Positions 10,737 to 23,372 of a DNA stretch of 23,372 bases are shown here, one piece after another. The stretch's first letter is position 1, and each line of letters starts with the position of its first letter. The DNA is from a virus: positions 1 through 23,372 of IMG/VR virus record IMGVR_UViG_3300042320_000043; one strand, 5' to 3'. A program made the translations under genes and the position numbers. The notes beneath the pieces are model-generated. The model worked only from the letters and a program-made list of their open reading frames with translations. It ran no database searches and was not told the DNA's origin.

Positions 10737-13700
10737 TTACCTACCTCCCGAAAGTAAGCCACCAGGGCGCTGCTGCTTAATCAGCTCGGCTTGCACTGCG
10801 CCGGCAATCACACGGCCCAACGCAGCGCCCTGCGCAGAGTCGCCTTGCACCTGCGTGCCCTTGGCATCAACACTGACATTAACAGTGGTGGCGCCACTGC
10901 CGCCCCCCGCAACGCCAAGCTTGCCGTCTGGACCGCGCTTGAGTGGCATGATCGCTTCAGGTCCAGCTTCACCCATGACTCCTGTAGCCATGGCGCTGCC
11001 ACGAGCAAACTTAAACAGCGTTGGACTGTTGACGATGCCTCCCTTGGCATAAGGGACGATTCCGTTTTGCGCGAAGGCGTTGCCGTTGGCATTCAAGACG
11101 CCTAGAGGGTTATTGATTGAAGCGGGAGCAGACAAATCAGAGAGTCCAGCTCCCCCAGCTGCAGCGCCAGCGGTGGGATTGAAGATCCTTACAATCGTGT
11201 TCAAGATCGCCAGCTTGATCCATTCCGCAATCATCTTGGCGGCCATGTCAGCGAAATACTCGGCCACGCTGCTGAAGAAGCCAGCCAATGCTTCCTTGGC
11301 ACTCACGCTGCCGGTAATGACGCCCTTGAATGCATTGCCAAATGCATCGCCAATTGCGGTGGCGGCGCCGACGACCTGATTGCCAACATTAAGCAGCTCA
11401 TTCAATCCACCCTGGATCCTTTCAATCTCGGCGCCAATAATTGTTGAGGGAGAGTCATTGCTAGCAATACGATCCTGCTCAGCCTTGCCCTCGCCCTTAA
11501 TTCTTTCAAGTTCCTTGCGTTGCCGCTCGATCTCATCAGCAGAAGCGCCATCAGCCTGAGCCTTGACAAGCGCTGCCTCTGCGGCGCGAATTGTCTCCTC
11601 AACCACTTTCTTGGTCTCAAGATACTGTCTTGCTGTAGCTGGCAAGGTCCCCTGCGCAATCAATTCACCATATTCACGCTCAAAAGAAGCACGATCTTTG
11701 AATTCCGCCATTTGCTTGGATGCGGTTTCCATTGATTTTTTTAACTCATCATTTGCTTTCTTCTCTTGCTCGGCAAGACTAAAAACAAGCTTTGCGGATT
11801 CTTGAATTGATTGCTTTTTAAGTATTTCAAGCCTTAGCTCTTTATCCTTGGACGGAATTTTTTCTAGATCAAGTTTTGCTGCCTCGGATACCAATCGCGT
11901 TTGAGCAACAAGCGTTTGCAGGATTGCGGCCTCACGCTCATCACCAGCTAACTTCGCTTGAGAAATTAACGACTCAGCTTCAAGCAGCTGATCCATCAAG
12001 TTCAATTCAATGCGCAATTCAGCGGCGCGACTTTCTGGTCCCTTGGCGCCCTTGCCGCCCCCCTTGCCACCGCCGTCCCCTGCACCCGTGCCTCGACCAA
12101 AATTAAAAGAACGTGTTCGCGTGGATCGAAAACGGACCTGAGAGCTAGGTGCTCCATAGCGCCCAAATCCACCGGTATCCCCAAAAGTGCCGACAGGCCC
12201 GCCCTGCGCGGCGCGGCTGGAAGCGCCAGCGGCATACTGAGCTGCGCCTGCTAGCAGGCCTGCAGTATTCCCGCCCAGAATGCTGCGAATTGGCGCAGGC
12301 AAATTCTGCCACCAATTGGCAATAAGACTACTCAATCCGTTAAATGCTGCCGAAGCATTGGACTGCATGTTTGAAAAAGCGTCCGCCCAAGCGCTATCAG
12401 TATTTTCAGCGCTTACTTGGCCAGACTGAGATACAGAACCAAAAACATCATCAAACAATTGCTGAATAAACGACGCAGCTGGAGAGAGACTGTCTCCCAA
12501 GTTTTCAAAAGCCTGTCCGACATCACTCGCAGCTGCCTGACCATCTTCTTTAATTTGCTCCATGCTGCGCTTAAAGTCTCCCGCAACAACATTTCCAATG
12601 TTGTCAACCCAGTTTCTAAAGATTTCATTGGTGTCATAAACCGCTTTGCCAAGCAGCCCCAGGCCAACAACTCCCGCCGCCACCCAGCCAAATGGCGATA
12701 TGCCAAGCAATGCAGCCTTCAACCCTTGCACAGCCAGACTTGCCGTGCCAGCGATGCCACCCATTTGCGCGATGGCGGCAGAAACCTTAACAAAGGCCGC
12801 TGCAGCATTTGTTGCTATTGGAATTGCGGCTGCTATTGCGCCCAGCCCCAGCAAAGCCTTAAGCCCTCCTACGATTACTCCAGAATTATCAGCAATGGTT
12901 TTAGCGATAGCAGCAATACTTGCAGCAAAGTTGATAATATTTTGCTCATTTTCAATTAAAATATTTGAAACAATTTCCTGGAACTGTGCGCCAACTGGCT
13001 GCAGCTCACGCCCAACCGCTTCTCGCAATCGGGCAAAAGTGACCTGAATTCGATCACCAGCAGCCTGACTGCTGGCTGCAATTTCATTTGCAGAACTGCC
13101 ATAACGGGTACTCAATGCTTGCACAAATTTCATGAAGTCATTAAGTCCGACTTCACCGCCCTCCAGCAACTTATCCAATTCTTGCGGGGTCTTGCCAATG
13201 GATTGCGCAAATAGCGTGAATGCACCAGGGAGTCGCTCACCAATTTGCTGCCGCAATTCTTCGGCGCTTACCTTGCCTTTGCTAAACACCTGCGCCGTAG
13301 CCCGCAACGCAGCTTCCATGTCATTCAAGTTGCCACCCGTACCACGGATACCAGCAGCAATTCCCTCAAATGCCAATTTGGCGGCGTCAACATTGCCACC
13401 AGCGCCGATCACGCTGGCCGATAGCTGAGTGAATTGCTTATTCAACTGATCCTGAGGAATCGCCAATCGACGGCTAGTGGCATCAATAAATTGCAAGCTC
13501 TTTTCGTACTCAGCTTGGCTGCCAACCACATTGCGCAGAGCAATCCGCTGCTTGTCGATTTCAGCCGTGAAGGCCGCCATCTGGCCTAGCGATTGCCGAA
13601 TCATTCCTGCCTGCGCACCAATGGCAGCACCAGCAAAGGCGCCAGGCACGCCGCCAACTGCTGTGCCGATTGCGCCACCAATGGCGCCCTCAGGACCACC

Positions 13701-14957
13701 AAAGATGCCACCACTGATGACAGCGCCAGCCGCTTGGGTGGCTTCCATGGCGCCAAGGCGGCGGCGGCGGCCCTGCATCCGCTGCATTCGGCGGTCGATT
13801 GCAGCCATAGCCTGATCGGCTTCCCTGGCAACCTTTCCGTAGTCAACGCTTAGTGGGCTGATCGTGGTGCGAAGTTGTTGCCAAGCATCACGCTGTTGTT
13901 GCAGGCTGCGGACGCTGCCATCCGAAGAAGCCGCAACAGTGCGAATTTGTTGTGCAACTTCCCCATAGGTGCGGCCCATGAGTTGCGCAGCGTTTGCACC
14001 GGCTTGGCCGCTGATTGCTCCAATAGAGCGGAATAGTTCACTTGGCGCTTCTGGGCCAAACATTTCCCCCGTCAAGCCGCGCCCAGCAATCCCCGCTCGC
14101 TTTGCACGATTTCTTTCGATAGAACGGCTAACCGCATCCCGGGCACGCAGAGCATCATTCTCTGCATTGATCGCTCTTAGGTTTGCAATGCGATCATTGA
14201 TTTCATCTTTGCGAGCCTTGTTAGCCTCTCCCGTAACGCGATCAAGCTCCTGTTGTACTGTTTTAATTTCACTAAGGCGTTGCTTGTAATCACGAAGCGT
14301 GTAATTAGTATTTTGCAGGTCTTCTCGCAGCTCGACAAGTCGAAGACTTAGTGCAGCAGTTGTTTTTGGTAGCTCCTGCTCCGGCGTCATCGCACCAATC
14401 AATGGTGCCCCAACCGCCTGTGCGCCAGCAATTACGCCCTGGCGAGCCTGCGCCCGCCCAAAAGCCGTCTCCCTAATTGTGATTTCAGTGAGTTTGTCGC
14501 CATATGCCCGGGCGCTGACGCTTATGCCATCCAGCTCACGCCGCAATGCAGCAAGCTGAATGCGGAAGGCTTCGGGGCGACGGGCAGGAAATTGATTTGC
14601 AATTTGCCGATCAGTTTGCTCAGCAGCACGGCCAACAGCTTTGTAATCCTGTTCCAGGCTTTTAAGTGTTTTGCTGAGCCGGGTTACATCATTGGCAAGT
14701 TGTGAGTAAACATTGCCGCCAACAGTGGCCTGTGTGCGCAGCGTTTGAAGCGCCTGAATCTGACCCTTTAGTGCTTGCTCGCTATTATTTAGGCTCTTGG
14801 CGTATTCATTGATCTGCTTACGAGCAGATTCAATTTGCGTGTCAGTAAGAGTTGTTGCGCGGCCTAGCTCACGAAAACCACTCGCAATCTTTTTTAGCTC
14901 CTCACCGCCTTCAAACTTAAGTTGAACCAGCAGCTCCTCAATCCGGTTCCTAGCCAT
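10737..14957 (-). CDS. H: Tail tape measure protein
   Basis: 1406 aa, the longest gene here. It sets tail length and is ejected on infection; at about 0.15 nm per residue it predicts a tail in the range of 200 nm. The N-terminus (1-340) is long, charged and coiled-coil like. The tape measure core domain spans about 455-650 (EIDKQRIALRNVVGSQAEY, RRLAIPQDQL, GKVSAEELRQQIGERLPGAF). Strongly hydrophobic segments follow at about 680-775 (GLKALLGLGAIAAAIPIA, FGWVAAGVVGLGLLG), then a second coiled-coil region near 990-1185. The C-terminus has lambda-type motifs, VSAKEALAGFFSSVAEYFADMA and PEAIMPLKRGPDGKLGV. AAGGAG lies about 8 nt before the ATG. It overlaps the chaperone stop by 8 nt. Confidence 0.95.
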   Translation of the reverse strand: MARNRIEELLVQLKFEGGEELKKIASGFRELGRATTLTDTQIESARKQINEYAKSLNNSEQALKGQIQALQTLRTQATVGGNVYSQLANDVTRLSKTLKSLEQDYKAVGRAAEQTDRQIANQFPARRPEAFRIQLAALRRELDGISVSARAYGDKLTEITIRETAFGRAQARQGVIAGAQAVGAPLIGAMTPEQELPKTTAALSLRLVELREDLQNTNYTLRDYKQRLSEIKTVQQELDRVTGEANKARKDEINDRIANLRAINAENDALRARDAVSRSIERNRAKRAGIAGRGLTGEMFGPEAPSELFRSIGAISGQAGANAAQLMGRTYGEVAQQIRTVAASSDGSVRSLQQQRDAWQQLRTTISPLSVDYGKVAREADQAMAAIDRRMQRMQGRRRRLGAMEATQAAGAVISGGIFGGPEGAIGGAIGTAVGGVPGAFAGAAIGAQAGMIRQSLGQMAAFTAEIDKQRIALRNVVGSQAEYEKSLQFIDATSRRLAIPQDQLNKQFTQLSASVIGAGGNVDAAKLAFEGIAAGIRGTGGNLNDMEAALRATAQVFSKGKVSAEELRQQIGERLPGAFTLFAQSIGKTPQELDKLLEGGEVGLNDFMKFVQALSTRYGSSANEIAASSQAAGDRIQVTFARLREAVGRELQPVGAQFQEIVSNILIENEQNIINFAASIAAIAKTIADNSGVIVGGLKALLGLGAIAAAIPIATNAAAAFVKVSAAIAQMGGIAGTASLAVQGLKAALLGISPFGWVAAGVVGLGLLGKAVYDTNEIFRNWVDNIGNVVAGDFKRSMEQIKEDGQAAASDVGQAFENLGDSLSPAASFIQQLFDDVFGSVSQSGQVSAENTDSAWADAFSNMQSNASAAFNGLSSLIANWWQNLPAPIRSILGGNTAGLLAGAAQYAAGASSRAAQGGPVGTFGDTGGFGRYGAPSSQVRFRSTRTRSFNFGRGTGAGDGGGKGGGKGAKGPESRAAELRIELNLMDQLLEAESLISQAKLAGDEREAAILQTLVAQTRLVSEAAKLDLEKIPSKDKELRLEILKKQSIQESAKLVFSLAEQEKKANDELKKSMETASKQMAEFKDRASFEREYGELIAQGTLPATARQYLETKKVVEETIRAAEAALVKAQADGASADEIERQRKELERIKGEGKAEQDRIASNDSPSTIIGAEIERIQGGLNELLNVGNQVVGAATAIGDAFGNAFKGVITGSVSAKEALAGFFSSVAEYFADMAAKMIAEWIKLAILNTIVRIFNPTAGAAAGGAGLSDLSAPASINNPLGVLNANGNAFAQNGIVPYAKGGIVNSPTLFKFARGSAMATGVMGEAGPEAIMPLKRGPDGKLGVAGGGSGATTVNVSVDAKGTQVQGDSAQGAALGRVIAGAVQAELIKQQRPGGLLSGGR

Positions 14958-15303
14958 TGGCTTTCTCCTTGTGAAGCTCGGCTAGGGCTGCGGTCTCCAT
15001 GATCTGCAGGTCTTCCAACATGCCACGCCGGTCCTTGACATCATAAAGCTCAAACATCCCCCCGGCACCCAGAAGCACTTCATATTTCATCCCGGTGTAG
15101 CCCGCCATGCTCACCTGCCACTGCGTACCCATACGCAGGAACATCATCACTGTTTCCCAGTTGTCATCCCAAACCAAAAAGCCCTCAGGCCTTGAGGGCT
15201 TGTTCTCAACGGGCAGGATCAAGCCAAATGCCTTGGCGTCATCATCCGTCTTGTCATCTACCGGCTGCGCACCCCCTGCCCAGTGGATCGCAGCGTCTCT
15301 TAG
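14950..15303 (-). CDS. Tail assembly chaperone T-like extension (DUF1799), expressed by -1 frameshift
   Basis: This is the second half of a gpG-gpT-type fusion. The frame is -1 relative to the upstream G-like gene and is open from the slippery site to the stop at 14950, giving 117 residues after the shift and a fusion of about 225 aa. Residues include LRDAAIHWAGG, then FLVWDDNWETVMMFLRMGTQWQV, a pattern matching DUF1799 proteins found just before tape measure genes. A TTG at 15222 could start a 90-aa form but would remove the conserved HWAGG part and has no ribosome binding site, so frameshifting is the better model. In lambda, G and GT coat the tape measure and recruit tube subunits; the same role is inferred here. 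It overlaps the tape measure start by 8 nt. Confidence 0.82.
   Translation of the reverse strand, partial: LRDAAIHWAGGAQPVDDKTDDDAKAFGLILPVENKPSRPEGFLVWDDNWETVMMFLRMGTQWQVSMAGYTGMKYEVLLGAGGMFELYDVKDRRGMLEDLQIMETAALAELHKEKANG
15179..15201 (-). terminator. Terminator-like hairpin inside the T-like frame
   Basis: On the minus strand AAGCCCTCA, loop AGGCC, TGAGGGCTT form a perfect 9-bp stem, and TTT continues after it, so five T's lie at 15176-15180. It codes for NKPSRPEGFLV in the T-like frame. It could be an attenuator shielded by translating ribosomes, or a coincidence of coding sequence. Confidence 0.4.
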
Positions 15304-15309
15304 TTTCCC
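15264..15309 (-). promoter_or_regulatory. Programmed -1 ribosomal frameshift site
   Basis: The heptamer G GGA AAC (15303-15309) is in frame at the last two sense codons of the G-like gene and is followed directly by TAA. After an 8-nt spacer (15295-15302) comes a hairpin with stem GCTGCG / CGCAGC (15289-15294 and 15264-15269) and a 19-nt loop. Slipping back one base gives GGG AAA CTA and enters the T-like frame. Lambda uses GGGAAAG at the same place between G and T. Confidence 0.85.
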
Positions 15310-15626
15310 TCCCGTGCCGCGTTGAAGGTCTCGGTGTAAGCCTTCAGTACACCACGGATCCAGTAGGGATCATCAGCGAATTCTTTGACGGCTGCCTGGG
15401 AGAACGGAATGGGCTTGCCATCCTCATCATCCATGCCGTCCCAGTTGACAAGCACTGCCTGTAACATCTGCACGTCGCCTTTCTCGCTCAACTTGGCGAA
15501 CTCAGTACGCCCCAGCCGCTTGAACGTGGCATCAAAGGTGCTGGAGTCAAAGGTGCCGCCATCAGACGGCTCTTCCACCGTGACGGGCCACTTGAAGGTT
15601 TTAACCTTCTTTCGGATAAAAGTCAT
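15300..15626 (-). CDS. Tail assembly chaperone, G-like
   Basis: 108 aa. It lies between the tail tube genes and the tape measure, the position of lambda G (140 aa). It is small and acidic in its second half: MTFIRKKVKTFKWPVTVEEPSDG, FKRLGRTEFAKL, NWDGMDDEDGKPIPFS and DDPYWIRGVLKAYTETFNAAREGN. The DGxPxxFS and final helix fit phage tail assembly chaperone families. The last codons GGA AAC before TAA form the frameshift heptamer, so most ribosomes should make this short form and a minority the longer G-T fusion. No clear Shine-Dalgarno precedes ATG 15626. The upstream 84-nt gap holds a T8 tract and hairpin. Confidence 0.85.
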   Translation of the reverse strand: MTFIRKKVKTFKWPVTVEEPSDGGTFDSSTFDATFKRLGRTEFAKLSEKGDVQMLQAVLVNWDGMDDEDGKPIPFSQAAVKEFADDPYWIRGVLKAYTETFNAAREGN

Positions 15627-15710: not shown

Positions 15711-16976
15711 CTAGGCAAAAACCAGCTTGAATTCGTCGTTGCCGTTGGTCGATGGCGTTGCCACATACGGGATGGAAAGGCCTTGGATGCTCTCTGCGTC
15801 TTCATAGTCAGGATCCACCAAGTCAATTCGGCTGGACAGCAGCGCCACCAGATTTCCAGCAGTCTTTCCATGGATGAAGGACAAATCACCTGCAGCGGGG
15901 TCGGTTGGATCTAGGTAAATACGCTCAGAATCTTCGTAAAGCAAATCGAAAGAATCCTCGGTCAATAAGGCGTCAACAGGGTCCATCTCGCCGCCCAGCG
16001 CTGCAGCGAAAAAATCCTTCCCACTGACCCCAGCCAAGACTGGCGCCTCTATTTCAACGCTGCCATTCACGTCACGACCCGTGATGAATACCTCCTCATG
16101 GCAATTGAGCAGATCACGAAAAATCAGTTCGTTGCCCAATTCCATGACGACTGATCGAAGACAGCCACGGAATCCAAGCAGGGCAAAAGCACCTGTGTTG
16201 CCAGCCTTGAAAATACTTGGCGGCCCCTGATTGGCATATGTCACCGCCGGCAACGCAGTATCCGTTGGAGGGTTGTAAATGCCGTTGAAAACAAACTCAA
16301 TGGCCGGTATCGAGCCCAAGTCCGCAACTACGGCACAGGTGCCCCTGCATCCGGTAATACGATGAAGCGTTCCATCAACATTGTAATAAATAGTTGTTGA
16401 CTGTGGATTGTCGCTAATAGGTTCGTAGATAGTGGAAACATCAATGCTGTAAACACTTGTACTGTCGTAAGTTGTATTGTTGTTCAAGGGTCGAATTGAT
16501 GCAACCTTACTGGCGCCGACATAATCAATAATCAGCCCAAGTGTTCCTTGCCCCAATCCGCCAGTCACTCGAATAATTCGGCCAACGTAAACACGCTCAA
16601 CCGAGCTAGCACTGGCATCAAGCGTGATTGCATTGACTCCACCCCCAGCCGCAGTGCCTGCAACCGGGCCGCTTGTCACTGTTTCGCTCAGCGAACAGGC
16701 CTTCAGCAGTGAGCTGAATTGTGGTGTCACTCCGACTACGCCGCTGCCTGTCAGCTCAACACTCATTGATACTTCGACACGAGTATTGGCCAGCAACTGC
16801 TCCGAAGCGCCGTAATACGGACGCACGGTCTCACGATCAACTACTTCGCTTTGCAGCGGAATAATTTCCAAGTCAAAAACGTGTATGGCATCAAAAGCTC
16901 CACTAGGAGCTGAATCAATGCCATACACGCCCTCAATTTTGGAAAGGATCAGTCGCTTCTTGGTAAGTTGCACCAT
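15711..16976 (-). CDS. Tail tube protein, second paralogue with octapeptide insert
   Basis: 421 aa. It aligns end to end with the 387-aa tube protein upstream: in the first 100 aligned residues I count about 60 identities, and the ends IPYVATPSTNGNDEFKLVFA / LPYTAIPSTAGNDEFRLVFA match. Shared motifs include VRPYYGASEQLLANTRVE, GCRGT, IFKAGNTGAF and LSFIHG. The family is the phage tail tube type (Phage_tube_2-like). The extra length is mainly an insert at about 330-362, which holds three octapeptide repeats. Codon use looks less biased and more AT-rich than in the first copy, so expression may be lower. It could be a decorated tube subunit, a minor subunit at one end of the tube, or a divergent copy under different selection. 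The gap to the first copy is only 24 nt. Confidence 0.88.
   Translation of the reverse strand: MVQLTKKRLILSKIEGVYGIDSAPSGAFDAIHVFDLEIIPLQSEVVDRETVRPYYGASEQLLANTRVEVSMSVELTGSGVVGVTPQFSSLLKACSLSETVTSGPVAGTAAGGGVNAITLDASASSVERVYVGRIIRVTGGLGQGTLGLIIDYVGASKVASIRPLNNNTTYDSTSVYSIDVSTIYEPISDNPQSTTIYYNVDGTLHRITGCRGTCAVVADLGSIPAIEFVFNGIYNPPTDTALPAVTYANQGPPSIFKAGNTGAFALLGFRGCLRSVVMELGNELIFRDLLNCHEEVFITGRDVNGSVEIEAPVLAGVSGKDFFAAALGGEMDPVDALLTEDSFDLLYEDSERIYLDPTDPAAGDLSFIHGKTAGNLVALLSSRIDLVDPDYEDAESIQGLSIPYVATPSTNGNDEFKLVFA
15906..15974 (-). repeat. Three octapeptide repeats in the second tail tube protein
   Basis: Residues 335-357 read as D + ALLTEDSF + DLLYEDSE + RIYLDP. Acidic residues fall 8 apart at 340, 348 and 356, and the block ends in LDP, as the gpL block ends in LEP. 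The 387-aa paralogue lacks the block and goes directly from AALTDGTLGE to LSFIHG. Confidence 0.75.
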
Positions 16977-17000: not shown

Positions 17001-18164
17001 CTAGGCGAAGACGAGCCTAAACTCGTCATTACCAGCCGTGCTCGGGATTGCCGTGTAAGGCAGCGACAGCATGTGAATGCCATCTTGATCCTGATAGCTG
17101 GGGTCACCGATGTCCACGCGGGTGGACTGCAACGCCACGATGTTGCCACCAGTGGTGCCATGGATGAATGAAAGCTCACCCAGGGTGCCGTCAGTCAACG
17201 CAGCAGTGAAATAGTCCTTCTGCGCGATGGTCGGTGCCTCGATCACAACCGTGCCAGTGGTGGCGCGATCAGTGATCAGCACTTCCTTGGTGCAGCCCAC
17301 CAGCTCCCGATACACCGTGCTGTTGCCCAGGTCCATCGAAACAGACTGGAGGCAGCCGCTGTAATCCAGCAGGGTGAAGGCACCGCTGTTACCAGCCTTG
17401 AAGATCCGAGGCGTTGCCTGATCGGCGTAGGTGACGCTCGGCGCAGCAGTGTCGGTCGGAGCGTTGTAAACCCCGGTCATCGTGAAGTCGATGGTCGGGA
17501 TTTCGCCAACAGCAGTGTTGATCGAGAACGTGCCACGGCAACCAGTGAGCTTGTGCAGCACACCGTCAATGTTGTAGTGAAGCGTCACCGAACCAAACGT
17601 GGAACTCACCGGGGTGTAAACCACGTGAGCGTCAATGCTGTAAACGCTGGTGTTATTCAGGGTCACCGCAGCGCCAATGGAACGCAGCGTGGCGACCTTG
17701 GTCGAGCCAACGTAATCGGTGATCAAGAACACCGAGCCAACGCCAAGACCAGAAGTGATGCGAATCACTTGGCCGTTGTAAAAGTCGTTGTTGGAGCTAG
17801 CGCCAGCAGCCAAGGTGATGCTGTTGGAGCCACCAGCAGTGGCAGTGCCGGTCACAGCAGGCGAAACAGTCGTCTCAGCCAAAGCACATGCCTTGAGCAC
17901 CTTGCCAAAGCGTGGCGCGGTGCCAGCAGTGCCACTGCCAGCCAGTTCCACGCTGAAGGTGCATTCAACGCGAGTGTTGGCGAGCAGTTGCTCGGATGCA
18001 CCCAGATAGGGTCGCACCAGATCGCGGTTGACCACATCACTCTGCTGAGGAGTGATGTTCAGATCCCGCACCAAAATGGCATCAGCGCCATCGGGCGAAG
18101 GGTCAACCCCGTAGCTGGACTCCGTCTCCGCCAGAATCAGGCGTTTGCGTGTCAGAAGTGGCAT
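17001..18164 (-). CDS. Major tail tube protein, first paralogue
   Basis: 387 aa, in the position of lambda V (246 aa). It polymerises around the tape measure into the tail tube. The N-terminus RKRLILAETESSYGVDPSP, then VRDLNITPQQSDVVNRDLVRPYLGASEQL, is typical of the longer tail tube family (Phage_tube_2-like). The middle holds the GVGSVFLITDYVGSTKVATL region and YNIDGVLHKLTGCRGT; the end is AIPSTAGNDEFRLVFA. AGAGG lies about 9 nt before ATG 18164, inside the preceding gene, which overlaps this one by 62 nt. Codon choice is strongly biased toward C/G-ending codons like the capsid gene, which fits an abundant structural protein. I take this copy to be the main tube subunit. Confidence 0.92.
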   Translation of the reverse strand: MPLLTRKRLILAETESSYGVDPSPDGADAILVRDLNITPQQSDVVNRDLVRPYLGASEQLLANTRVECTFSVELAGSGTAGTAPRFGKVLKACALAETTVSPAVTGTATAGGSNSITLAAGASSNNDFYNGQVIRITSGLGVGSVFLITDYVGSTKVATLRSIGAAVTLNNTSVYSIDAHVVYTPVSSTFGSVTLHYNIDGVLHKLTGCRGTFSINTAVGEIPTIDFTMTGVYNAPTDTAAPSVTYADQATPRIFKAGNSGAFTLLDYSGCLQSVSMDLGNSTVYRELVGCTKEVLITDRATTGTVVIEAPTIAQKDYFTAALTDGTLGELSFIHGTTGGNIVALQSTRVDIGDPSYQDQDGIHMLSLPYTAIPSTAGNDEFRLVFA

Positions 18165-18761: not shown

Positions 18762-18900
18762 TGATGAATCCCGGCGGACCTGGGTCGCAACCCTTAGTCA
18801 GTATCGCAACAGCACGCTTGTAGTAGTAGCAGTCCGTTTTACCTGCACGCTCTAAGGCTTCCTTCACCTTGGCCCAGTTGGCGCGGGTGTCGGCATCCAT
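18751..18900 (-). CDS. 49-aa protein of unknown function
   Basis: ATG at 18900 shares a base with the stop of the upstream gene (TAATG), and the end overlaps the tail terminator start by 11 nt. The coupling at both ends and the absence of a gap argue for a real gene. The product is MDADTRANWAKVKEALERAG, then KTDCYYYKRAVAILTKGCDPGPPGFINGK. It looks like a helix pair with a basic second half. Family not recognised. It could be a small assembly factor of the neck, the region its neighbours build. Confidence 0.75.
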   Translation of the reverse strand: MDADTRANWAKVKEALERAGKTDCYYYKRAVAILTKGCDPGPPGFINGK

Positions 18901-19517
18901 TACGCAACCTCAACAGCCACAAGCCGAGCCCGGCCAAGAGTGATGTCCACATTGCTGCTGTGGTTGGCAATGAACAGCGCCACCTCGTCGCCAGCAGCCA
19001 TGCTGATGATCCAATTGGTAACCAGCTTGGCTTCCTCCGCGCCGGAACCTGTAAAAGCGCGGCACTCGGTTTGATCTATGGCAGTGCCATTCTTAGCCAG
19101 TTTGATACCGAGGATCTTGTTGTTGCCGCTGACAGTTTTGGCGTCGATGCTGCCGTAGATCTGCATCAGCTTGGTGCTGCCGCTAGTGTTCTTCACCGCA
19201 AATGCGTTGGTGGTGCCAAGCGTCATGCCGTTGGCTGTGGTGCTGTCAAAGGTGCCAGTAAGACCAGTGGAAACGTAGACGCCCTGCGTAACTATGTCGA
19301 TGGTGCCAGCGTCCATCTTGCTCACCTGGCCGCGCACCACCGCCCCTGCCGCTGTTAAGTAATAAGACAATGCAGACCAAGCGCTGCTGCCATTACCGAC
19401 CTTGAAGTTGCGGGTGTCAGTCTCGATGCCAACCTCCCCCAACAAAAGCACGGGATTCGCTGCTGTCCATGCAGAGGCTGTATCACGCCGAAGCCGAAGT
19501 CGTGCTGTGCTGCTCAT
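18900..19517 (-). CDS. Virion protein with Mtd-like N-terminal domain
   Basis: 205 aa. The first 50 residues (ARLRLRRDTASAWTAANPVLLLGEVGIETDTRNFKVGNGSSAWSAL) match the N-terminal domain first known in the Bordetella phage Mtd protein and in many fibres. There it serves as a virion attachment domain. The rest (60-205) is Thr/Ser/Gly-rich and beta-like (GTFDSTTANGMTLGTTN, MQIYGSIDAKTVSGNNKILGIKLAKNG, SMAAGDEVALFIAN) and resembles TNF-like jelly-roll folds of fibre tips. It lies between the head-tail joining protein and the tail terminator, so a neck or head appendage is a reasonable guess. It overlaps the joining gene by ATGA. Function is inferred. Confidence 0.78.
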   Translation of the reverse strand: MSSTARLRLRRDTASAWTAANPVLLLGEVGIETDTRNFKVGNGSSAWSALSYYLTAAGAVVRGQVSKMDAGTIDIVTQGVYVSTGLTGTFDSTTANGMTLGTTNAFAVKNTSGSTKLMQIYGSIDAKTVSGNNKILGIKLAKNGTAIDQTECRAFTGSGAEEAKLVTNWIISMAAGDEVALFIANHSSNVDITLGRARLVAVEVA

Positions 19518-21629: not shown

Positions 21630-23372
21630 TCAGGTGCCGTAGCAGAAGGCGCCGGGCTGCTTAACAGCCACGTCGAGGTCTTGATGGGCAATCACGCGCA
21701 CGGTGCCAGCAGTGGCCCCAGCGTAGGGATCAACCATCAGGTCCAGACCGGACCACATGCCCATCACCATCTGGCTGAAGTCACCGAACAGAGCATCGTT
21801 GCTCAGCAGTTGGTTGGAGACGATCACCGGATAACCGTTGACCTCGTTGTTCTCCCACACAAAGGAAGCCTCGGTGCCGGCCTTGCTGGTGGACTTCAGG
21901 AGGCCACGAGCGGTGGCGTTCATGATGTACCGCAGCGAACCCACGTCAGCGTTAGCAACAGCAACGTCGGTCTCCATCGCAATCAGCTGCACAAAGGTGC
22001 CAGCGTTGGTCAGGGTCTCAGTGCCGATGCCAGTGGTGTTGATCAGACCCAGAGGCTGGTTGGTGGAGCCAGTGCCGTACATGGCAGCACGGTCAACTTC
22101 CAGAGCGATCACACGAGCCAGGTCGTTACGGATCATGCCCTCAACGTCGATGCTCGACTGGAGCAGCAGACGACGGCTGTAGTCCACAAAAGCGGCCACA
22201 GTCTTGGGGGTCATGTTGACCTGATCAATCGCTTGCTGCGATTCGGTCGGAGCAACGTTCTCACCCACCCAGTAAGCAGTGGCGGCGCTGGTCTGACGGG
22301 GGATCGAGATGTTGCCCTGCAGGCCAGTCAGCATCGTCACGCCAGCCTGGGCCAGTGCCAGACGGTTGCGGAGCAGATCAATGAAGCTGCCAGCAAGCAG
22401 TTCATCAGCCACCAAGTTGCCGCCGGAAGCGGGGATGTCCACCACCAGATCACGACGCAGCACCTCGTTCGGCACCACGATGCCGTTTGAAGAGCGCTCG
22501 TACTTGGAAGCGGCAGCCTTACCAACCTCAATCTCAAATTCAGCAGAGCGACGGGCGCTTGCATCACCAGGATTGGCCAGGTAGTTCAGAGCCTTGATGA
22601 AGCTGAAGCGCTTCACCTCTTTCTTGTCCAGACCCAGATCGTTCTGAGTCATGTCTTGAGAGCGAATAGGTTGTTCCATGGGGGCTTGGCCGAGTTTGTC
22701 GAGGACAGAAGCACGCGCTTCATCGAGGGTGCGACCACCATCGATCAATTCGCGGGCCAGATCTTGCAGCTGGTGCTTTTCGCCCAGTGCGGTGATGGCG
22801 GCGATACGGCTCCGCTCGGCCTCGACGGCCTTGGACCGGATCACCTCCACATCAGGGGTGTTGTTCTCCATTTGAACCTCAGGTTCGGGTGATGCGGCGG
22901 AGGCCGCTTGACTGCGCACTTCCTCCTGAATGGATTCAGTGACTTCAGTTTCGATCTTAGTCTCCTCGGGTTGCATAGTTTGCTCCGGAATGAGTGAACG
23001 TCCTACGCCCACCGTCGGATCGGCGGGAATAGAAACAACGCTGATTTCATAAGGAGACCAGCTCGTGGCGACCATTGCGCCGTCGCGCTCTTGCATTTCA
23101 TCAATTGAATAGCCGAAGCTCACGCCACGCAAAATGCCATCGCGCACGTCATCAAGGATCTCTTGAGCAGCCTTGCTGCGGCTGAAACGCACTTTTGCGT
23201 AACCACGCCTCTTCTGACCGTCAACCCAAGCGCGTTCAACCACGCCCAGTACACGATCAGGATCATGGTTAAACAGCAGCGGTGCGCCATCGTTCAACCG
23301 CTCAAGGACTGCTGCATCCATTTCATGGCTCAGCACTTCCTTCCCGAAATACCGTTCAACCGGATACTCCGA
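21630..23372 (-). CDS. Prohead protease fused to HK97-fold major capsid protein, N-terminus off window
   Basis: 580 residues are visible and the frame is open to the window edge (SEYPVERYFGKEVLSH...), so the start lies beyond it. The first about 125 residues are a prohead protease of the S78/HK97 type: LFNHDPDRVLGVV with the likely catalytic His, GVSFGYSI with the likely catalytic Ser, and VVSIPADPTVGVGRS. Next comes a charged helical region (about 135-240), which fits a scaffold or delta domain. The capsid domain follows with PASGGNLVADELLAGSFIDLLRNR, ISIPRQTSAATAYWVGE, NQPLGLINTTGIGT and the end VRVIAHQDLDVAVKQPGAF. In the HK97 group the protease, scaffold and capsid may be one polyprotein that cleaves itself during maturation. 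C/G-ending codon bias supports high expression. Confidence 0.93.
   Translation of the reverse strand, partial: SEYPVERYFGKEVLSHEMDAAVLERLNDGAPLLFNHDPDRVLGVVERAWVDGQKRRGYAKVRFSRSKAAQEILDDVRDGILRGVSFGYSIDEMQERDGAMVATSWSPYEISVVSIPADPTVGVGRSLIPEQTMQPEETKIETEVTESIQEEVRSQAASAASPEPEVQMENNTPDVEVIRSKAVEAERSRIAAITALGEKHQLQDLARELIDGGRTLDEARASVLDKLGQAPMEQPIRSQDMTQNDLGLDKKEVKRFSFIKALNYLANPGDASARRSAEFEIEVGKAAASKYERSSNGIVVPNEVLRRDLVVDIPASGGNLVADELLAGSFIDLLRNRLALAQAGVTMLTGLQGNISIPRQTSAATAYWVGENVAPTESQQAIDQVNMTPKTVAAFVDYSRRLLLQSSIDVEGMIRNDLARVIALEVDRAAMYGTGSTNQPLGLINTTGIGTETLTNAGTFVQLIAMETDVAVANADVGSLRYIMNATARGLLKSTSKAGTEASFVWENNEVNGYPVIVSNQLLSNDALFGDFSQMVMGMWSGLDLMVDPYAGATAGTVRVIAHQDLDVAVKQPGAFCYGT

Follow-up and report, generated by a model that had tools for sequence, protein, structure and literature searches.

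Comparative evidence for a programmed −1 frameshift at a tail assembly chaperone junction whose slippery heptamer touches the stop codon

The window analyzed here, a whole viral record of 23,372 bases, carries lambda-like tail genes, and between its tail tube (PF18906) and tape measure (PF20155) genes sit two tail chaperone frames. The first is a 108-aa open reading frame whose minus-strand end reads ...GCG GCA CGG GAG GGA AAC TAA, with G_GGA_AAC in phase over its last two codons and a protein ending in REGN-stop. A first-pass annotation had placed a complete −1 frameshift cassette here, and its coordinates were confirmed on the minus strand: the in-frame G GGA AAC lies directly before the TAA, the −1 frame is open from the heptamer for 117 codons on to the stop at 14952–14950, and the 8-nt spacer, GCTGCG/CGCAGC stem and 19-nt loop are positioned exactly as claimed (Table 1). 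Post-slip reading would begin with CTA (15303–15301), and the predicted fusion of 225 aa would cross REGN-LRDAAIHW. It had also been anticipated that a plain gene caller would give the second frame a TTG start, and the mechanical ORF list does contain it as a 90-aa ORF from TTG 15222 to 14950.

Table 1. Features of the chaperone junction and its neighbouring genes in the window.
Feature	Position	Strand	Basis
G-like tail assembly chaperone ORF, 108 aa	15300..15626	-	PF08748 Phage_TAC_4, PHROG 569; W62, N108
Slippery heptamer G_GGA_AAC	15303..15309	-	Sequence; GGGAAAC/AAAAAAC nearest in 154/158 distinct junctions
0-frame stop TAA directly 3′ of heptamer	15300..15302	-	Stop-heptamer contact in 149/158 distinct junctions
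8-nt spacer, stop included	15295..15302	-	Sequence; folding optimum ~6 nt past heptamer, 55 lineages
Stem 5′ arm GCTGCG	15289..15294	-	Sequence and folding of the window
Stem 3′ arm CGCAGC (loop 15288–15270)	15264..15269	-	Both arms retained in close relatives
Predicted T-like segment after −1 slip, 117 aa + stop, first residue L = CTA	14950..15303	-	PF08809 DUF1799, PHROG 680; −1 constraint over residues 1–26
Tape measure protein gene, next downstream, 8-nt overlap with T end	10737..14957	-	PF20155 TMP_3
Tail tube-like protein gene, upstream	15711..16976	-	PF18906 Phage_tube_2

Profile matches identify both frames. The 108-aa protein scored 23.8 bits against PF08748 (curated cut-off 21.1) and the −1 segment 47.2 bits against PF08809 (curated cut-off 26), both above threshold, and the two match PHROG 569 and PHROG 680, respectively. 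Hmmscan of the 108-aa protein gave PF08748 alone at E ≤ 0.001, with no match to the lambda G family (PF06894, Phage_TAC_2). Among 31 relatives of this G-like protein W62 is invariant and N108 nearly so. Its AlphaFold model (pLDDT 78) had no meaningful match among PDB folds, profile searches against PDB sequences returned nothing credible, an Rfam search gave no match and a tRNA search found none. PHROG 569, 680 and 17368, which match window positions 14950–15626, are labelled ‘tail length tape measure protein’, yet it is the two parts of the tail assembly chaperone that they match.

Related loci were gathered from viral contigs, named phages and bacterial genomes, and the 255 in which both parts were found were reduced to 158 distinct junctions and then to 56 clusters (greedy, 60% identity of the downstream part); the loci counted share descent and are partly redundant, which these reductions lessen but do not abolish. 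The family profiles used for finding both parts were built from stop-abutting members and could favour finding such members; prophage searches with the public PF08809 model instead gave the same picture. The downstream part lies in the −1 frame in all 255 loci. GGGAAAC is the nearest in-phase heptamer in 106 of the 158 junctions, abutting the stop in 104 and lying 3 nt from it in one and 27 nt in another. For the 48 with AAAAAAC, the distance is 0 nt in 44, 3 nt in two, and 21 nt and 27 nt in one each. Two further junctions have AAAAAAA (at 27 nt), a single one has AAAAAAT (at 0 nt), and the last has no heptamer. This places X_XXA_AAC in 154 of the 158, with 148 of these in contact with the stop; any heptamer touches the stop in 149, and the contact is present in 47 of the 56 lineages. 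An AAAG-type heptamer occurs in none of the 158. The stop itself is TAA in 90, TGA in 61 and TAG in seven, meaning the heptamer is kept while stop codon identity varies freely. All 15 named phages of the family with directly read junctions have the site, as do most of the prophages in Gamma- and Alphaproteobacteria. In the 47 stop-abutting representatives the GGA/AAA and AAC codons are fixed but for one AAT, and, although the residue before the run differs among them (E, R, A, L, V, Q, K, P), its wobble base is always the one found in the run. Given the codon usage of the genes themselves, and with the 47 divergent lineages treated as independent, the synonymous choices needed for the heptamer have a joint probability of ~10^-68. 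Relatives with the same genes and no heptamer had been named beforehand as the finding that would speak against a frameshift; among the 158 distinct junctions there is one, L249, which does count against it.

A fusion could also be made by the polymerase slipping on the A run, which is conceivable for the seven or eight A in phiES15, pAEv1818, HK639 and ZX4290 and for the eight in L039 and L143. However, the window and most of its distinct relatives have GGGAAAC, with a longest run of three, and the selection for a downstream hairpin at ribosomal spacing described below also argues for ribosomes, so we consider transcriptional slippage extremely improbable as the source of the fusion. In L039 and L143 the eight A are followed by CC with the stop 27 nt on, and these two are possible transcriptional slippage variants. 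The prophage relatives L249 and L263 have the same two domains and no slippery heptamer near the first stop.

Comparable sites have been described in known phages. Burkholderia phage KL1 (gp18/gp19) and Acinetobacter phage Loki (gp12/gp13) resemble the window in having GGGAAAC/AAAAAAC against the stop of the first chaperone and the second part in −1, and the contact between stop and heptamer was already noted by their authors (PMC3483164, PMC5313236). KL1 differs in that its T part is of a different family (PF23812, PHROG 3817/8233) and one gene separates the chaperones from the tape measure. In the KL1-like family, X_XXA_AAC abuts the stop in 37 of 39 distinct junctions. The KL1-like and DUF1799 loci might have converged on one layout; their G parts, however, are weakly similar by profile comparison (hhalign probability 91.5 over 40 columns), which makes common descent of the layouts possible. 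Closer to the window are Stenotrophomonas phage Silvanus (gp12/gp13) and Escherichia phage BrunoManser (bas12_0015/0016), which carry the window’s families and a long stem likewise placed; their heptamer touching the stop is AAAAAAC, and the hairpin sequence is unrelated to that of the window. The Silvanus record has a joined frameshift product, annotated by similarity to T1. Lambda G/GT likewise shifts to −1 where a tail chaperone gene ends, ahead of the tape measure gene, and shares the first bases of the heptamer, GGGAAA-, but its heptamer ends in G (A_AAG), its stop lies 15 nt downstream and its Pfam family is another. The first-pass annotation was correct in giving the lambda heptamer as GGGAAAG, while its ‘same place’ is only approximate, the site lying 15 nt before the G stop. 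The lambda-G family had no matches among 274 Gammaproteobacteria, and lambda relatives were therefore drawn from viral contigs; GGGAAAG with the stop 15 nt on was found in 12 of 12 distinct ones. Elsewhere, a stop directly after the slippery heptamer is on record with eukaryotic ribosomes and polymerase fusions (PMC4373837), two phage sets gave published mean distances of 26 nt and 36 nt between slippery site and stop (PMC10885494), and A_AAC sites are also on record for a haloarchaeal virus and the phiCbK group. The window’s site belongs to a well-known kind of phage switch, and its stop contact is uncommon but already reported.

If the two frames were separate genes, the downstream protein would start by itself, with TTG 15222 or a comparable codon used through coupling or reinitiation. 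The TTG-started ORF of the mechanical list would fit this, as would the S-CBS1 and S-LBS1 records, in which only the second gene is annotated, from an internal start. However, conservation of the −1 protein (L-x-D-A-A-x-x-W...) begins at the slip point itself, which lies upstream of TTG 15222. Over residues 1–26 of this frame, the 83 gap-free relatives gave 16,959, 19,068 and 50,026 differences at codon positions 1, 2 and 3, respectively, and ATG, GTG and TTG are missing from the stretch in 77 of them. The −1 reading upstream of usable starts is under coding constraint, or purifying selection, and this third-position bias together with the relatives lacking a start codon makes a separate start unlikely. 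Separate genes would also leave the fixed heptamer and the positioned hairpin unexplained, and we regard this arrangement as highly improbable. The S-LBS1 chaperone (L126, A18) is annotated as an ABC-transporter ATPase component and is evidently misnamed.

Since the arms of the downstream stem are invariant near the window and shifted further out, the stem was tested by a synonymous-codon null and not by fixed-column covariation. For 40-nt segments averaged over 55 divergent lineages, folding energy is about −9.3 kcal/mol in the background along both genes and drops to −18.2 at +6 from the heptamer; stem sequences are unrelated between lineages (e.g., BrunoManser, Silvanus and S-LBS1). With the −1 protein and codon usage fixed, the folds beat the null (mean z −2.03, Fisher p 4e-21), 22 of 47 lineages doing so at p ≤ 0.05. 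The stimulatory hairpin that had been proposed thus stands family-wide, with a 3′ structure 5–9 nt past the heptamer, but the window’s own hairpin is unremarkable by itself (MFE −16.1, z −0.95, 30 of 200 shuffles as stable) and not significant against the synonymous null (p = 0.18), a point against a frameshift at this site. Support for it as a candidate stimulator derives from the relatives. A further hairpin of high stability (−25 to −30 kcal/mol) occurs ~60–105 nt past the heptamer in the KL1-like loci L347, L348, L355 and L363. Inside the window’s T-like segment is a terminator-like hairpin, AAGCCCTCAAGGCCTGAGGGCTT, with a T-rich tail (15201–15179, minus strand), of which close relatives keep the stem and not the T run.

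An upstream Shine-Dalgarno-like stimulator, as in dnaX, is not required for a G/GT-type frameshift. Such a stimulator is not claimed here: mean anti-SD pairing peaks strongly at −14 in both families, but against the synonymous null the signal is weak (Fisher p 0.08, Wilcoxon 8e-4) and mostly explained by the encoded residues, and the window is without it there.

The −1 position of the downstream part in every related locus, the near-invariant X_XXA_AAC, the positioned hairpin and the −1 constraint support the frameshift proposed between the two chaperone frames, and judging from these sequence comparisons we consider it very likely that the locus is a G/GT-type tail assembly chaperone switch operating by programmed −1 ribosomal frameshifting. 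We infer that slippage occurs, and its frequency, its step and the roles of the chaperones would be as follows. The majority of ribosomes would make the 108-aa G protein and terminate at the TAA, while the hairpin beginning 8 nt past the heptamer would hold a minority of them, allowing tRNA-Gly and tRNA-Asn to re-pair one base back on G_GGA_AAC (GGA to GGG, AAC to AAA). Reading would then continue in −1 to give the 225-aa G-T fusion and, by analogy with lambda, many G and few GT may cover the tape measure protein and bring in subunits of the tail tube. Weighing against a frameshift at this site is the choice of slip codon: A_AAC ranks with the most slippery sites when mammalian ribosomes read it, yet in E. 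coli it is weak, with A_AAA_AAG far above A_AAA_AAC (PMC5009743).

The adjacent stop had been suggested as a possible cause of pausing, which was not established. When a stop directly followed the HIV-1 slippery site, shifting on bacterial ribosomes was lowered, which is a further point against a frameshift here, and became sensitive to RF2, with extra RF2 abolishing it; this was read as E/P-site slippage (PMC4373837). Because shifting fell and was RF2-sensitive in that test, the adjacent stop may tune yield by competition and not simply pause the ribosome. A refinement compatible with programmed frameshifting would take stop-touching A_AAC sites as a termination-gated subclass, in which the slip comes after the stop enters the A site, competing with release factors. 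Across the superfamily, the Asn (AAC) slip codon, weak in E. coli alone, might then be usable with a stop in the A site and a hairpin holding the ribosome, and release-factor supply in the infected cell would set the G:GT ratio. The near-fixed X_XXA_AAC against the stop in both the window’s family and the KL1-like one is consistent with this, as are lambda’s AAAG with its stop 15 nt off and the RF2 sensitivity of the HIV-1 site. On the other hand, the 8-nt spacer fits ordinary P/A-site slippage as well, the contact may do no more than terminate the short product where slipping occurs, and the distant relation of the two families’ G parts means the common layout may be inheritance. A few relatives also keep the heptamer with the stop shifted by at least one codon: in four, over two families (L145, L236, L243 and L365), TCA or TCG replaces the stop and TAG follows one codon later, so stop contact is strongly preferred and not absolute. 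On balance we think gating by termination rather unlikely, both for this class of site and as a rule across the superfamily.

The analysis supports one unannotated fusion protein in this phage, and the site is genuine and of an ordinary kind, its regularity extending across the family. For PF08748/DUF1799 chaperones (PHROG 569/680, mislabelled ‘tape measure protein’) a working rule is that the last bases of the first gene are GGGAAAC or AAAAAAC before the stop, and the fusion can therefore be annotated automatically. The lack of AAAG together with the nearly fixed stop contact also turns the way bacterial ribosomes slip at A_AAC into a testable question.

Several other features of the window’s structural genes were observed. 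Two tandem tail tube-like proteins (15711–16976 and 17001–18164, minus strand) are 53% identical, and the copy adjoining the chaperones has a ~30-residue insertion in its C-terminal third. Domains of a prohead protease (PF04586) and of a major capsid protein (PF05065) are encoded together, in frame, by a single ORF at 21630–23336 (minus strand). Lastly, an Mtd_N (major tropism determinant N-terminal domain)/tail-fibre-like gene lies at 18900–19517 (minus strand) between head-closure-like and tail-terminator genes, an unusual location for a receptor-binding part.
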